Shown in pieces: positions 27,615-53,324 of a stretch of DNA of 64,000 bases. Source of the DNA: an uncultured Gemmatimonadota bacterium (GTDB lineage Bacteria; Gemmatimonadota; Gemmatimonadetes; Gemmatimonadales; Gemmatimonadaceae); assembly GCA_902826615.1 (NCBI GenBank), contig CADEFN010000008.1, positions 62,001 through 126,000 on the forward strand, written 5' to 3'. A program made the position numbers and the translations under genes. The notes beneath the pieces are model-generated. The model was not told where the DNA came from. It was given only the letters and a program-made list of their open reading frames with translations, and made no database searches. Every line of letters starts with the position of its first letter. Positions within the stretch are counted from its first letter, which is position 1.

Positions 27615-27674
27615 CCGTCGGCTAGTGTGACTGGGCTCACGGGGGGTCGTCTATGAGGTACGGCCAATCCCGGC

Positions 27675-33412: not shown

Positions 33413-33630
33413 ACAGTGACGCACGGCCCACGACTCCTGACGCGCACGCGTTTACCGCCGCGCTGGCCGAACTCGGGGTCGAGGCGCAGCTGGAGGTACG
33501 CGGCGCACTGGCCTTGCTTGTTCCGACGGGTGGCGTGCACTTGAACCCGGTGCTCCGACGGCGGGTAGAGGAGCTGGCCCGCATCGCGGGTTTCAGTCAC
33601 GTGGCGGTGGAACTGCTCGACCCTTCGTGA
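33409..33630 (+). CDS. Small protein coupled to larE, unknown function
   Basis: A 73-residue soluble protein whose GTG overlaps the larE stop as GTGA, which strongly supports it being real and co-translated. A short polar leader is followed by what looks like an alpha/beta fold: AALAELGVEAQLEVRGALALLVP, then a helix VLRRRVEELARIAG and a strand HVAVELLD. I do not recognise the family. The coupling suggests a helper role with LarE. Confidence 0.65.
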   Translation: MNSDARPTTPDAHAFTAALAELGVEAQLEVRGALALLVPTGGVHLNPVLRRRVEELARIAGFSHVAVELLDPS

Positions 33631-33664
33631 TTGTGATCACCATTTCCGGGAGGGAGTAAGCTGG

Positions 33665-48506: not shown

Positions 48507-50048
48507 ATGACGACGATGCCATCCGGGTTCGATCCGCTTCGCCTGACGGTGTTTGCCAACGCCGTCGCGATGATTGCCGAGGAGATGGGGAGTGTGCTGG
48601 AGCGTGGGGCGTTGTCGCCTAACATTCGGGAGCGCCGTGATGCGTCGTGCGCGTTGTTTGACGCGCAGGGACAGATGATTGCCCAGGCGGCGCATATCCC
48701 CGTGCATCTTGGCGCCATGCCCGAGGCCGTGCGCGCTGTTCGGGCGCGCTCACCCGGGCCGGGAGACGTCTTCCTCCTCAACGATCCCAATCACGGCGGG
48801 TCGCATCTCCCCGACCTCACGATGGTGGAGGTGATCGCCTCGGAGGGGGTCACGGTAGGGTACGCTGCCGTGCGTGCCCATCACGCCGATGTGGGTGGGA
48901 TGAGCCCGGGGAGTATGCCGCGAGGCGCTACAGAGTTGGTGCAGGAAGGGCTGATTGTTCCACCAGTGCGCATTGCGACAGGCGACGCATGGAACGACGA
49001 CGTGCTCTCCCTCGTGCTCGCCAATGTCCGGACACCGGAAGAACGCCTGGGAGACCTGCGTGCGCAACGCGCGGCCTGCGCGGCCGGGCGGGAGGGGTGG
49101 CTGCGGCTGCGAGAGCGTGATACTCCCGAGCTGGTGGATGCGGCCTCGGTGGCGCTGCTTGACTACACCGAACGTTGTGTACGCGCGCGCCTCGAGACGT
49201 TAGGTGGGCGGAGTGGGACGGCGGCCGACGCGCTGGAGGGCGATGGCGTCAGCGAAGATGACGTGCCGGTGTGTGTGCGCCTGACCGTCGCCAATGGCAC
49301 ACTCGAGGTGGACTTTACCGGGACGTCACCCATGGTGGCGGGCAACGTGAATGCACCGCTGGCCGTGGCACGCGCCGCAGCCGTGTTCGTACTGCGCACA
49401 CTCATGCCCGATGACCTGCCGACCAACGATGGGATTGCGCGCGCCATTCGCCTGATTGCCCCCGAGGGAAGTGCGGTGAACGCACGCTGGCCTGCGGCGG
49501 TCGCGGCCGGGAATGTGGAGATGTCGCAACGGGTCACCGACACCTTGTTTGCCGCCTTCGCCTCCGCGGGTGTCGAGGTGCCGGCCCAGGGGCAGGGCAC
49601 CATGAACAACGTGACCTTCGGTGGACGGGGCTGGACCTTCTACGAAACGTTAGGTGGTGGGCAGGGTGCCAGTGCGCGCGGACCCGGGCCGAGTGCGGTG
49701 CACGTGGGCATGAGCAATACGCGAAACACTCCCATCGAATCGCTCGAACACGCCTACCCGCTTCGAATCGACGAGTACGCTCTGCGCGCAGGGTCGGGTG
49801 GAGGCGGGACACATGGCGGTGGCGATGGCGTGGTGCGTCGCTACCGCGCGCTCGAGGCCTGCACGGTCACCCTGGTAACCGAACGCCGGCGTCACGCGCC
49901 GCGTGGAGCCGCGGGTGGAGGTGATGGCGCCACCGGACAGAACCTCCTCAATGGCACACCAATCCCGGCCAAGTGCCGTCTGGAACTCAAGGCCGGCGAT
50001 GTGGTGTCGGTGCTGACACCTGGTGGTGGAGGGTGGGGTCGGCGTTAG
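48507..50048 (+). CDS. Hydantoinase/oxoprolinase family subunit B
   Basis: The 513-residue partner of the preceding gene has the family landmarks SVLERGALSPNIRERRD, LLNDPNHGGSHLPD, VRAHHADVGGMSPGSM, and the Gly-rich C-terminus GSGGGGTHGGGDGVVRRYRAL. Together the two should form an ATP-dependent cyclic-amide hydrolase. The stop TAG overlaps the stop TAA of the convergent metallo-hydrolase gene (TTAG, 50045-50048). Two dispersed-word copies read Leu-Gly-Gly and one reads Pro-Asn. Confidence 0.92.
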   Translation: MTTMPSGFDPLRLTVFANAVAMIAEEMGSVLERGALSPNIRERRDASCALFDAQGQMIAQAAHIPVHLGAMPEAVRAVRARSPGPGDVFLLNDPNHGGSHLPDLTMVEVIASEGVTVGYAAVRAHHADVGGMSPGSMPRGATELVQEGLIVPPVRIATGDAWNDDVLSLVLANVRTPEERLGDLRAQRAACAAGREGWLRLRERDTPELVDAASVALLDYTERCVRARLETLGGRSGTAADALEGDGVSEDDVPVCVRLTVANGTLEVDFTGTSPMVAGNVNAPLAVARAAAVFVLRTLMPDDLPTNDGIARAIRLIAPEGSAVNARWPAAVAAGNVEMSQRVTDTLFAAFASAGVEVPAQGQGTMNNVTFGGRGWTFYETLGGGQGASARGPGPSAVHVGMSNTRNTPIESLEHAYPLRIDEYALRAGSGGGGTHGGGDGVVRRYRALEACTVTLVTERRRHAPRGAAGGGDGATGQNLLNGTPIPAKCRLELKAGDVVSVLTPGGGGWGRR

Positions 50049-50911
50049 ACGCCGACCGTCATCCCTTCGGCGGCGGCCACCACCTGCACGCGCCCCGACC
50101 GCTCCTGCACCATCTGATGGCAGAGGGCGAGCATCTCATCAAGCGCCGCATCCGTCCGGTCGGGTTCGTGGTGGAACAACACGAGTGTTTCCACCTCGGC
50201 GGCGATGGCAAAGTCGATGGCATCGCGATACGACGAATGGCCCCATCCTCGGTGATCCATGTACTCGGCGCCCGTGTACATGGCGTCGTGAATCAGCACC
50301 TTGGCCCCACGCGCGAAATCCACCAGCGCATCGCGGGTTGAGGCATCCTCGGCGCGATCGCCGTCGCGATCGAGTTCGTTGTCGGGGATGAACACAATGC
50401 TCCGCTGCGGTTCCCCCGAGGGCCAGACCCGAAAGCCGAGCGCCCCACCGGGGTGTCGAACATTCACGGCACGGAGTTCGTAGCCGGGGCCAGAGTGGGC
50501 ATGGGCGGCGAAGGGCGCAAACTCCATGCGGGCCGAGAGCTGATCAAACGCCACCGGAAAGACCACGGGGCTCATCTGCTGGCGTAGCACTACCTCCAGG
50601 CTGCGTTCGAGGGCGGGCGAGCCCCACAGCTGAAACTGATTGCCTTTCTGGAATGCCGGCGCAAAGAAGGGGAGGCCCTGGATGTGGTCCCAGTGCGCAT
50701 GGCTGAAAAAGAGGTCGCCGGTGATGGCGTCGCCGTTGGCGTGTTCGGTGAGCGAGAGCCCTAACTCCCTGATGCCAGTTCCCGCATCGAAGATGACGAG
50801 GTGGTCATCTTCGGTGCGCAGCTCGAGGCATGTGGTATTGCCGCCGTACCGCGTTGTTTCCGGGCCAGGCGCGGGGCACGAACCACGGGTCCCCCAGAAG
50901 CGGACGTTCAT
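50045..50911 (-). CDS. Metallo-beta-lactamase-fold hydrolase
   Basis: The 288-residue protein has the metal-binding motif HAHWDH (71-76) after FDAGTGIREL, and a start MNVRFWGTRGSCPAPG that is typical of a phosphodiesterase-like branch of this fold. Later ligands include IPDNELD, LIHDAMYT and LVLFHHEP. Substrates in this branch include cyclic nucleotides or RNA ends; the actual one is unknown. Next on this strand is the Crp-type regulator, 75 bases further upstream, so the two might be one transcript. Confidence 0.88.
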   Translation of the reverse strand: MNVRFWGTRGSCPAPGPETTRYGGNTTCLELRTEDDHLVIFDAGTGIRELGLSLTEHANGDAITGDLFFSHAHWDHIQGLPFFAPAFQKGNQFQLWGSPALERSLEVVLRQQMSPVVFPVAFDQLSARMEFAPFAAHAHSGPGYELRAVNVRHPGGALGFRVWPSGEPQRSIVFIPDNELDRDGDRAEDASTRDALVDFARGAKVLIHDAMYTGAEYMDHRGWGHSSYRDAIDFAIAAEVETLVLFHHEPDRTDAALDEMLALCHQMVQERSGRVQVVAAAEGMTVGV

Positions 50912-50986
50912 GATGATGGAAGAGTCCGGGGCGGTAGAGGGCGCGCCGCCATGGCGGCCCTCTTGCCCCTCAGGAGGGACGTTCGA

Positions 50987-51700
50987 TCAGACGCGCGCTT
51001 GTGCCATTTGCTTGAGGGCCGGGCGATTGGCCACCGAGATGCGGCGACGCTCGACCTTGATGAGCCCCTGGATCTGGAAGTCGCGAATGGTGCGTGAGAC
51101 CGTTTCGCGGCTCGCCCCGATCATGTGCGCAATGGTCTGGTGGGTCAGGGGCTTCTCGATCATGTCACTCCCGCTTTCCTCGGCAAAATCGAGGAGCAGG
51201 CGGGCGATGCGGCCGGGCACGTCGAGGAGCGCGAGCCCGTGGATCTTGGCGTCAGCGCGGCGCAGGCGACGTGTCAGCTCGCCCATCAGGGACCAGGCTA
51301 CCGCCGGATTGGCTTCGACGCGGCGCCGGAAGTCATCACGACGGAGTACCAGGAGGTTGGTCTCCTCCATGGCGATTACGTGCGCCGACCGCGGCTGGTC
51401 GTCGATCAGCGAGAGCTCGCCGAAATGCTCGCCCACACCGAGAACGCCCAGAATGACCTCGCGGCCATCTTCCCCGATCAGGACCACCTTCACGCGGCCA
51501 TCACGGACCACGAAAAGCGAGTCGCCGGGATCGTCCTCGAAAACGATGACACTGCCCTTGGGGTAGTTCTTCTCCCGCATGAGCTCCCCAAAGCGCTGGA
51601 GTTCGGCGTCGTCGAGCTTGGAGAAGAGCGGGATCGAGCGGAGAAAGGCGGCGTTGTCCATGTTCCGAATTGGCCGTTCGAGCAATGAGGTCGACATCAT
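50987..51700 (-). CDS. Crp/Fnr-family transcription regulator
   Basis: The 237-residue regulator has an N-terminal cyclic-nucleotide-binding fold with the phosphate cassette FGELSLIDDQPRSAHVIA, whose Glu and Arg-Ser match cAMP-binding Crp. A long dimer helix and a C-terminal winged helix with MIGASRETVSRTIRDFQ follow; the helix SRETVSR is the classical DNA-reading helix of Crp. No Fnr-type cysteines are present. Two adjacent ATGs (51700, 51697) are possible starts, and ATG 51661 is a shorter alternative. A Crp-like palindrome lies about 70-85 bases upstream, suggesting autoregulation. Confidence 0.9.
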   Translation of the reverse strand: MMSTSLLERPIRNMDNAAFLRSIPLFSKLDDAELQRFGELMREKNYPKGSVIVFEDDPGDSLFVVRDGRVKVVLIGEDGREVILGVLGVGEHFGELSLIDDQPRSAHVIAMEETNLLVLRRDDFRRRVEANPAVAWSLMGELTRRLRRADAKIHGLALLDVPGRIARLLLDFAEESGSDMIEKPLTHQTIAHMIGASRETVSRTIRDFQIQGLIKVERRRISVANRPALKQMAQARV

Positions 51701-51761
51701 GTATGCACGAAAAATAGGTGGGTGCGGAAAAAAGGACCTGACCGAGCCCACGACCAGAGAC

Positions 51762-51784
51762 GCCACGCTGTGGCATTGGTCACA
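51762..51784. promoter_or_regulatory. Crp-like operator, copy 1
   Basis: TGTGGCATTGGTCACA at 51769-51784 differs from the Crp consensus TGTGA-N6-TCACA at one half-site base. It is preceded by GCCACGCT, so GCCAC-GCT-GTGGC can also form a small hairpin. It lies about 70 bases upstream of the Crp-type gene's start codon on the minus strand, a natural place for autoregulation. The sequence resemblance is direct; binding is inferred. Confidence 0.55.
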
Positions 51785-51856
51785 CCGGGTCGAGCTCCGG
51801 TCGGGCTGTCCGGGGTGAGGCATGGCGGACAGGGCCCGGGCCAAGATTGCCGGAAT

Positions 51857-51885
51857 GCCACGCTAAAGCGGTGGCTTGGGTCACC
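51857..51885. promoter_or_regulatory. Crp-like operator, copy 2 (partial duplicate of copy 1)
   Basis: GGTGGCTTGGGTCACC at 51870-51885 matches copy 1 at 12 of 16 positions. It too is preceded by GCCACGCT, here with six extra bases (AAAGCG) before the palindrome. The two copies are about 100 bases apart. Copy 2 is roughly 155 bases from the rpmE start, so the pair could serve both divergent genes. Confidence 0.45.
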
Positions 51886-52041
51886 AAAGTGGGCCTTATG
51901 TTGGGGAACCGAACCGCCGAGATCGGGCTTCATGGCTGGTAACCAGAGGGGGCACATGGGCGGCTCCAAACCCTTGTCCCACTTGATCTTCGGGTAGAGC
52001 CCCCTCATCTTTCCCAGCTCTTCAAGAACGCCAGAGTAGCC

Positions 52042-52248
52042 GTGAAAACAGACATCCATCCAGAATACGCGACCGCTACGGTCCGTTGCGCCTGCGGAAA
52101 CAGCTGGCAGACGCGGTCCACGGTTTCGGACCTTCATCTCGACATTTGCTCCGCCTGCCACCCCTTCTACACGGGCAAGCAGAAGCTGGTTGATACCGCC
52201 GGCCGTGTTGAGCGCTTCCGGCAGAAGTACGCCGGGAAAACCGCCTGA
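52042..52248 (+). CDS. rpmE: 50S ribosomal protein L31
   Basis: The 68-residue protein is a standard L31 of the zinc-binding type: [14 protein letters not shown] then [15 protein letters not shown], with the four-cysteine pattern (the first CxC plus CSAC). The start is GTG at 52042. It is followed directly by prfA, a common bacterial order. The stop TGA (52246-52248) is two bases before the CTG that is the likely prfA start. Confidence 0.96.
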
Positions 52249-52250
52249 GC

Positions 52251-53324
52251 CTGATTCGCGATCGGCTGGCTGGTGCGGTAGAACGCGCCAGCCAGGTCGA
52301 GCAGGAACTCGCAGATCCGGCCACGATGCGCGACTCGCGACGTCTGGCCTCGTTAGGTCGCGAGCATCAGCGTCTGACCGCCGTCGTCAAGCTGGCGCAG
52401 CGGCTGACCAAGTGTGATACGGAGCTCGCGGAGTCTCGCGAGCTCCTTTCCATTGATGACCCCGACCTCGCCTCCGAAGCCAAGGCCGAGGTCGCGCGGC
52501 TTCAGGCGGAAATCGCGCAGATTGAGCTCGATGTGCGCCCGCTCCTCGTGCCGCATGACCCGCTCGACGATCGCACCGCGATCTTCGAAATCCGCGCCGG
52601 GACCGGTGGCGATGAAGCCGCCCTCTTTGCCGCCGACCTCCATCGCATGTACACGCGCTACATCGAGCGACGCGGAGGATGGCGGATCGAACTCCTCTCC
52701 ATCTCCGATGCCACGTTAGGCGGCGCCCGTGAAGTCATCTTCAAGGTGGTCGGCGACGGGGCCTTCGGAGAACTGCGCTGGGAGGCCGGTGTCCATCGCG
52801 TACAGCGCGTCCCACTCACCGAGGCGGCGGGACGGATCCACACCTCCGCGGCCACGGTGGCGGTACTCCCGGAAGCCGAGGAAATCGACGTCGATATCCA
52901 GGAGAAAGACCTGCGGATCGATGTCTATCGCGCGTCGGGTCCCGGGGGGCAGGGGGTCAACACCACCGACTCTGCCGTCCGCATCACCCACCTCGCCACG
53001 GGCATCGTCGTCACGCAGCAGGATCAGCGCTCGCAGATCCAGAACAAGGCCAAGGCCATGGACGTCCTGCGTGCCCGTCTCCTCGACCTCCGCATTCAGG
53101 AGCAGCAGGCCGAACGTTCGCGGCTGCGCAAGTCGGCGGTCAGCACCGGCGACCGATCGGCCAAGATCCGTACGTACAACTATCCGCAGAGCCGCGTGAC
53201 CGATCATCGCATCAACATGACGCTGCACGACCTGCCGACCGTCATGGATGGCGACATTGGCCGCCTGATCGAGGCGCTCAAGCTGGCGGACCTCGAGGAA
53301 AAGCTCAGCAGCGACACCGCATGA
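52251..53324 (+). CDS. prfA: Peptide chain release factor 1, no canonical start codon
   Basis: RF1 reads UAA and UAG. The GGQ loop ([18 protein letters not shown]), the [14 protein letters not shown] region that carries the RF1-type P-x-T tripeptide (PLT), and [13 protein letters not shown] identify it. From CTG 52251 the protein is 357 residues and begins [20 protein letters not shown], aligning from its first residue with family N-termini. In this frame there is no ATG, GTG or TTG between the preceding stop (52209-52211) and the ATG at 52326. That ATG would remove about 25 residues of the first helical domain. A CTG start two bases after the rpmE stop, through reinitiation, is my preferred reading; ATG 52326 is the conservative one. 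Confidence 0.93.

Follow-up and report, generated by a model that had tools for sequence, protein, structure and literature searches.

Two Crp-type palindromes upstream of a Crp-like regulator gene in a Gemmatimonadaceae genome and a predicted autoregulatory circuit

Results

The crp-rpmE gap carries two Crp-type palindromes

The locus comprises a gene for a Crp-type regulator (hereafter crp; 50987..51661, minus strand), which is divergent from rpmE encoding ribosomal protein L31 (52042..52248, plus strand; NF000612, 114.6 bits against a cut-off of 70) and is followed on its own strand by a gene for an MBL-fold hydrolase (50045..50911, minus strand; PF12706). The crp start was set at the ATG at 51661, since in ortholog L006 the aligned ATG is immediately preceded by an in-frame TAA. 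From this ATG to the GTG of rpmE at 52042 the gap measures 380 bp and is the longest in the window, the whole 64-kb stretch of DNA that was analysed. It is not, as an earlier note on this DNA had held, the only long intergenic gap, because gaps of 353, 336, and 291 bp occur in the window according to a simple gene caller of our own that did not detect rpmE. A weak candidate for an rpmE promoter, TTGATC-N17-CATCTT (51983..52011, plus strand), was recognised by eye; at its place, orthologs L005 and L033 have TTGAAT/TTGAAA-N18-TATATT (also by eye).

Two palindromes, TGTGGCATTGGTCACA (site 1, 51769..51784) and GGTGGCTTGGGTCACC (site 2, 51870..51885), lie in the gap 101 bases apart, start to start, in agreement with the distance of about 100 bases given earlier. 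Mismatches were counted against TGTGAN6TCACA, the Escherichia coli Crp consensus. Read on the minus strand, site 1 is TGTGACCAATGCCACA and deviates from the consensus at one of the 10 positions, as previously noted, while site 2, GGTGACCCAAGCCACC, deviates at three of the 10. The same note had described each palindrome as preceded by GCCACGCT. Both copies are present on the plus strand, but their spacing differs: the copy at 51762..51769 shares one base with site 1, whereas the copy at 51857..51864 ends five bases ahead of site 2. Aligned relatives keep only CGTG of the complement of the second copy (by eye). An Rfam scan of 50900-52400 gave a single match of 17.4 bits, far below the gathering score of 60; thus, the repeats are not accounted for by a known RNA element.

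The significance of the sites was evaluated on the 377 bases between rpmE and the crp reference codon using dinucleotide shuffles of the gap. A best site with at most one mismatch arose in 0.5% and 1% of the shuffles in two runs. A family matrix, for which only 21 distinct sites from the sister genera described below were used, gave p = 0.004 for the best site in the gap, and two sites scoring at least as high as site 2 were found in 0 of 2,000 shuffles. Over the whole window, this matrix placed site 1 (score 12.2) 5th and site 2 (9.5) 10th. Two such good sites in 377 bases exceed chance. The same matrix gave its highest score in the window to CGTGATTGTGATCACC, an intergenic Crp-type site at 33626-33641 that precedes an ORF by about 70 bases.

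The regulator is Crp-like

The regulator contains a cNMP_binding domain (PF00027, 4.9e-27) and an HTH_Crp_2 domain (PF13545, 5.8e-21). Its HTH_Crp_2 match is the only one in the genome to exceed the cut-off, with three weaker matches falling below, and no other full Crp-type gene was found in this Gemmatimonadaceae genome. Its score of 116.3 bits with the E. coli Crp equivalog NF008732 (cut-off, 266) indicates that the regulator is Crp-like and outside the curated Crp equivalog.

Residues were counted in an alignment of 130 orthologs to E. coli Crp, three of the 133 proteins of the ortholog set being too short; the Crp numbering employed (R180, E181, R185, G71, E72, R82, S83, T127, and S128) is the one we take to be standard. 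The recognition residues R180, E181, and R185 are kept in 130/130 orthologs, which bears out the Crp-like DNA-reading helix proposed earlier. The likewise proposed Crp-like ligand cassette holds in part: the phosphate-cassette residues G71, E72, R82, and S83 are kept in all 130, but the C-helix position of T127 is Ala in 129 and Val in one, and that of S128 is Asp in 130/130. In E. coli Crp, cAMP interacts with T127 and S128 of the central helix, according to an excerpt of the source (PMC10127613). The genome contains two genes with class III cyclase domains, which makes a cyclic nucleotide plausible as the ligand. Among solved structures, the best full-length bacterial sequence matches are the actinobacterial Crp/Fnr structures 3r6s, 4byy, and 3d0s, presumably GlxR and Mycobacterium tuberculosis CRP; 3r6s has TN in the C-helix where the regulator here has AD.

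Site 2 is conserved among close relatives

From 155 ortholog loci, 133 were retained after removal of identical crp stretches. This set omits G034 and G020, two family genomes with a match, as well as order-level matches without a locus, and two Parabacteroides hits (L058 and L059) were excluded. No regulator match at 1e-60 was obtained in 54 of the 179 family genomes. The best Crp-type site had at most one mismatch in 27 of the 133 upstream regions (0.5 expected from shuffles) and at most two in 44 (8.2 expected), and the other 89 had no site with two mismatches or fewer. Under a wider site rule, 38/133 upstream regions carried a Crp site, with a pattern that is patchy by lineage.

The window clade consists of nine members of genera g1, g27, g12, and g6, six of which have a site with at most two mismatches (0.59 expected). 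In five of the six g1/g27 orthologs (L001, L004, L033, L082, and L005), the site aligns with site 2, not with site 1. The sixth, L007, lacks an aligned site 2 and any site with at most two mismatches; such a site is also absent from L035 and L037 (g6), and L034 (g12) has a Crp-type site at a different spacing. Best-site p values by the family matrix were 0.004, 0.03, 0.01, 0.035, and 0.005 for the five orthologs in the above order, 0.015 for L034, 0.345 for L007, 0.112 for L037, and 0.556 for L035. Conservation upstream of orthologous crp genes, which the earlier note had named as a check, was therefore observed for site 2, but the full palindrome of site 1 was seen in this genome only.

The aligned copies of site 2 in g1/g27 lie 221-235 bases from the crp reference codon in four of the five (315 in L082) and 76 to 283 bases from rpmE.

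The place of site 1 is occupied by a conserved two-box element

Site 1 overlaps a two-box element, TGTGAC-N16-CGTC (51759..51784, minus strand). At the place of site 1, GTGAC-N16-CGTC is found in 8/9 members of the window clade against 0.02 expected and in 1/124 of the other orthologs, and we infer that the two-box is the promoter from which crp is transcribed in this clade. The right half of the site 1 palindrome falls in the variable spacer of the two-box and is kept in 0/7 of the relatives that share the element; at this place the family matrix scores 12.2 here versus -15.0 to 5.0 in the seven relatives. Hence, the palindromes are not an equally conserved pair: only site 2 is kept, and the place of site 1 keeps the promoter-like element. 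The conserved half of a near-perfect Crp palindrome can, as a caution, stem from a promoter -35 box.

The two-box resembles the promoters of ECF41 sigma factors, for which an excerpt of one study gives the signature TGTCACA-n16-CGTC with a -10 like that of many ECF promoters (PMC3426412). The 16-base spacer and CGTC are common to both, whereas the -35 here, TGTGAC, differs by one base from TGTCACA, so that the sequence departs from the ECF41 signature. Genome-wide, TGTGAC-N16-CGTC showed no excess by count in 10 genomes (51 matches versus 78 control matches), and four of the 51 matches are crp itself. The other copies in this genome are intergenic in five of nine cases (9.3% expected, p = 6e-4), and three of these five point at a gene within 70 bases by our own reading. 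At 27626-27651, TGTGACTGGGCTCACG lies inside a second TGTGAC-N16-CGTC, 36 bases before a gene start, and this overlay of a Crp-like palindrome on a two-box is like that at site 1.

For g1/g27 relatives that lack a large insertion, site 2 was estimated by hand to lie some 125-140 bases upstream of the start predicted from the two-box. At this distance, it occupies no standard class I or class II position. We also rejected a class II assignment of site 2 for the window clade, as no -10 is visible at the right spacing; by eye, neither window site has a matching -10 at class II spacing.

Sister genera have a different predicted crp promoter architecture

The divergent gene order is conserved: in the ortholog set, crp is divergent from rpmE in 78/133 loci and from prfA in 31/133, and neither gene was found within the flanking DNA examined in 24/133. 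In the sister genera, where prfA rather than rpmE is divergent from crp, exactly one NGTGAN6TCACN is present in 29 of the 31 crp-prfA gaps. A gap-free alignment of these 29 sites revealed conserved bases in the direction of crp, namely T at 38, A at 39, and T at 43 bases from the start of the site. The centre of the site is thus about 30 bases from the -10, which is class II spacing; in class II Crp promoters, the centre of the site precedes the start by about 41.5 bases. The site-to-(-10) spacing of the sister genera thus fits class II Crp-activated promoters, but in the window genome no matching -10 is apparent by eye. In 28 of the 29 gaps, the site is followed after 14-40 nt by a candidate start codon of prfA (71 nt in L162), and the distance from the site to crp ranges from 133 to 326.

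A shorter gap that contains TTGAC-N16-19-TAnnT but lacks a Crp site is found in many other orthologs. Among the 133 upstream regions, 65 have this promoter only, 33 a Crp site only, five both, and 30 neither; the two features are largely mutually exclusive (Fisher p = 5.7e-9, uncorrected for relatedness). At least three putative crp promoter architectures, swapped between genera, can be distinguished.

Occurrence of the operator elsewhere in the genome

Of the 28 places in this genome with the core motif GTGAYN4RTCAC, 17 are intergenic, compared with 12.7% of random nearby positions (p = 3e-9; own gene caller). The number of motifs is below that of the spacing control, in which the half-sites are separated by N7 (28 versus 66). 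The motif was more frequent than the reversed control in 11 of 12 genomes, the two being equal in G026 (17 and 17), and half-sites 7 apart were commoner than the motif in 11 of 12 (23 against 24 in G015). A genome-wide excess of the operator by count was consequently rejected, because the N7 control is commoner, and only the intergenic bias was kept.

Matches to TGTGAN6TCACA with at most one mismatch numbered 103 genome-wide against 67 for the reversed control. Nine of the 13 perfect sites are intergenic (own gene caller). Four of the 13 (L060, L068, L070, and L072) are of the form TGTGAANNNNTTCACA, which we take to be the Rex operator form, and are probably Rex operators; since these make up four of the 13, the genome count of this motif was not used alone. 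One TGTGAANNNNTTCACA site is situated upstream of a gene resembling rex and another close to an etfB-like gene, and the perfect sites L066 and L067 lie about 53 and 105 bases upstream of atpA-like and rho-like genes (identities by eye).

Discussion

A model for autoregulation by two operators

We favour, with moderate confidence, a model in which the regulator binds two operators upstream of its own gene, site 1 on the crp promoter serving repression and site 2 being the older operator, while the sister genera would have positive autoregulation. The ligand-bound regulator would occupy both sites. At site 1, it would cover the -35 of its own promoter, so that RNA polymerase would be blocked and crp expression reduced. 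Site 2, as the presumed ancestral operator, may help occupancy or contact polymerase from upstream; looping, activation from upstream, and an effect on rpmE are conceivable roles. In the sister genera, the operator at the class II activating position would lead to positive autoregulation. Autoregulation, the prediction of the earlier note, is thus supported by the sites upstream of crp (27/133 versus 0.5 expected), the intergenic bias of the core motif, and the retention of R180, E181, and R185, but the support is uneven by lineage.

Several observations argue against the two-operator model. The palindrome of site 1 lacks conservation and may have come to overlie the -35 box by chance, no site with at most two mismatches was found in three of the nine clade members (L007, L037, and L035) and 89/133 orthologs, and the position of site 2, some 125-140 bases upstream of the predicted start, is neither class I nor class II. 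The counts also speak against it: the core motif is rarer than the N7 control (28 versus 66) and equals the reversed control in G026, and the two-box is not over-represented (51 versus 78). If only site 2 were a Crp operator, site 1 would be the -35 box of the crp promoter with a right half matching by chance, a reading that is possible although rather unlikely. The loss of the right half in 7/7 two-box relatives and the retention of the two-box in 8/9 clade members are what it predicts, whereas it leaves unexplained that site 1 outscores site 2 and ranks 5th in the window, and that the same overlay recurs at 27626.

It is improbable that the palindromes are not Crp operators at all and arose by chance or serve another regulator. 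Their patchy occurrence among relatives, motif counts that do not rise above the spacing control, and the Rex-like form of some TGTGAN6TCACA sites in the genome are in keeping with such an origin. Against it stand the absence of two such sites from all 2,000 shuffles, the site fixed to the -10 in 29/31 sister gaps, the conserved R180, E181, and R185, and the form of the window sites themselves, which is not Rex-like. That the sites mainly serve rpmE-prfA, not crp, appears very unlikely. While the prfA start candidates 14-40 nt past the site in 28/29 sister gaps, with a distance to crp varying from 133 to 326, would suit this role, the -10 at a fixed distance from the sister site is oriented towards crp, and site 2 in g1/g27 stands at a variable distance from rpmE, whereas its distance to the crp codon is 221-235 in four of five.

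Control of crp by its own product has precedents. Excerpts of one study report that E. coli Crp both represses and activates crp, that site I of E. coli crp lies 40 bp downstream of the start site, and that no crp autoregulation was seen in Yersinia pestis under the conditions used (PMC3050693). Given activation plus repression in E. coli and none reported in Y. pestis, variation of crp autoregulation among lineages is unsurprising. As predicted here, E. coli crp has Crp sites in its own control region; however, its site I is downstream of the start, whereas here one site lies on the putative promoter and the other far upstream, and the neighbours, rpmE-prfA and the MBL hydrolase gene, are unlike those of E. 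coli crp. Crp-type autoregulation is a circuit familiar in bacteria, on which the promoter overlay is a modest twist. Among the papers listed in literature searches, none dealt with sites bound by Crp in Gemmatimonadota, which does not prove that no such paper exists. The two-operator model under discussion provides a family-wide testable case of a Crp-like regulator controlling its own gene outside the well-studied phyla.

Neighbouring genes and a possible link to translation

The earlier note had also raised a linkage of Crp signalling to translation genes. Such a link is suggested by the prfA-near sites of the sister genera, but in the window clade the spacing of site 2 to rpmE (76-283) is loose and gives no sign that rpmE is regulated. 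The placement near prfA in the sister genera is hence a better lead than rpmE, and a second messenger might reach prfA by this route.

A gene for an MBL-fold hydrolase lies downstream of crp, on its strand, in 71 of the 72 orthologs with enough sequence, and its HxHxDH motif is present in 59/59 examined. With NF041851, a cyclic-nucleotide phosphodiesterase family, the hydrolase scored 37.8 bits (cut-off, 400), RNase Z models scoring higher, and 10/10 of its orthologs scored 28.7-64.3 bits. Rv1339, a cAMP phosphodiesterase, belongs to the same Pfam family, as an excerpt of its description states (PMC9293780). The hydrolase is possibly a messenger-degrading partner of the regulator. A broader proposal, which we regard as doubtful, is that in Gemmatimonadaceae a second messenger is coupled to translation through the Crp-like regulator. 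One operator would switch crp on and sit at the prfA start in the sister genera, setting release factor 1 (here perhaps rpmE-prfA) inversely to the regulator, and the MBL hydrolase may degrade the messenger, forming a self-limiting unit. Because of the invariant Asp in the C-helix, the messenger may be a molecule other than cAMP.

By eye, the homology of prfA in the window seems to reach upstream of its first ATG into 52245-52326, a stretch without ATG, GTG, or TTG, and CTG at 52245, which overlaps the rpmE stop, or at 52251 may be the prfA start.
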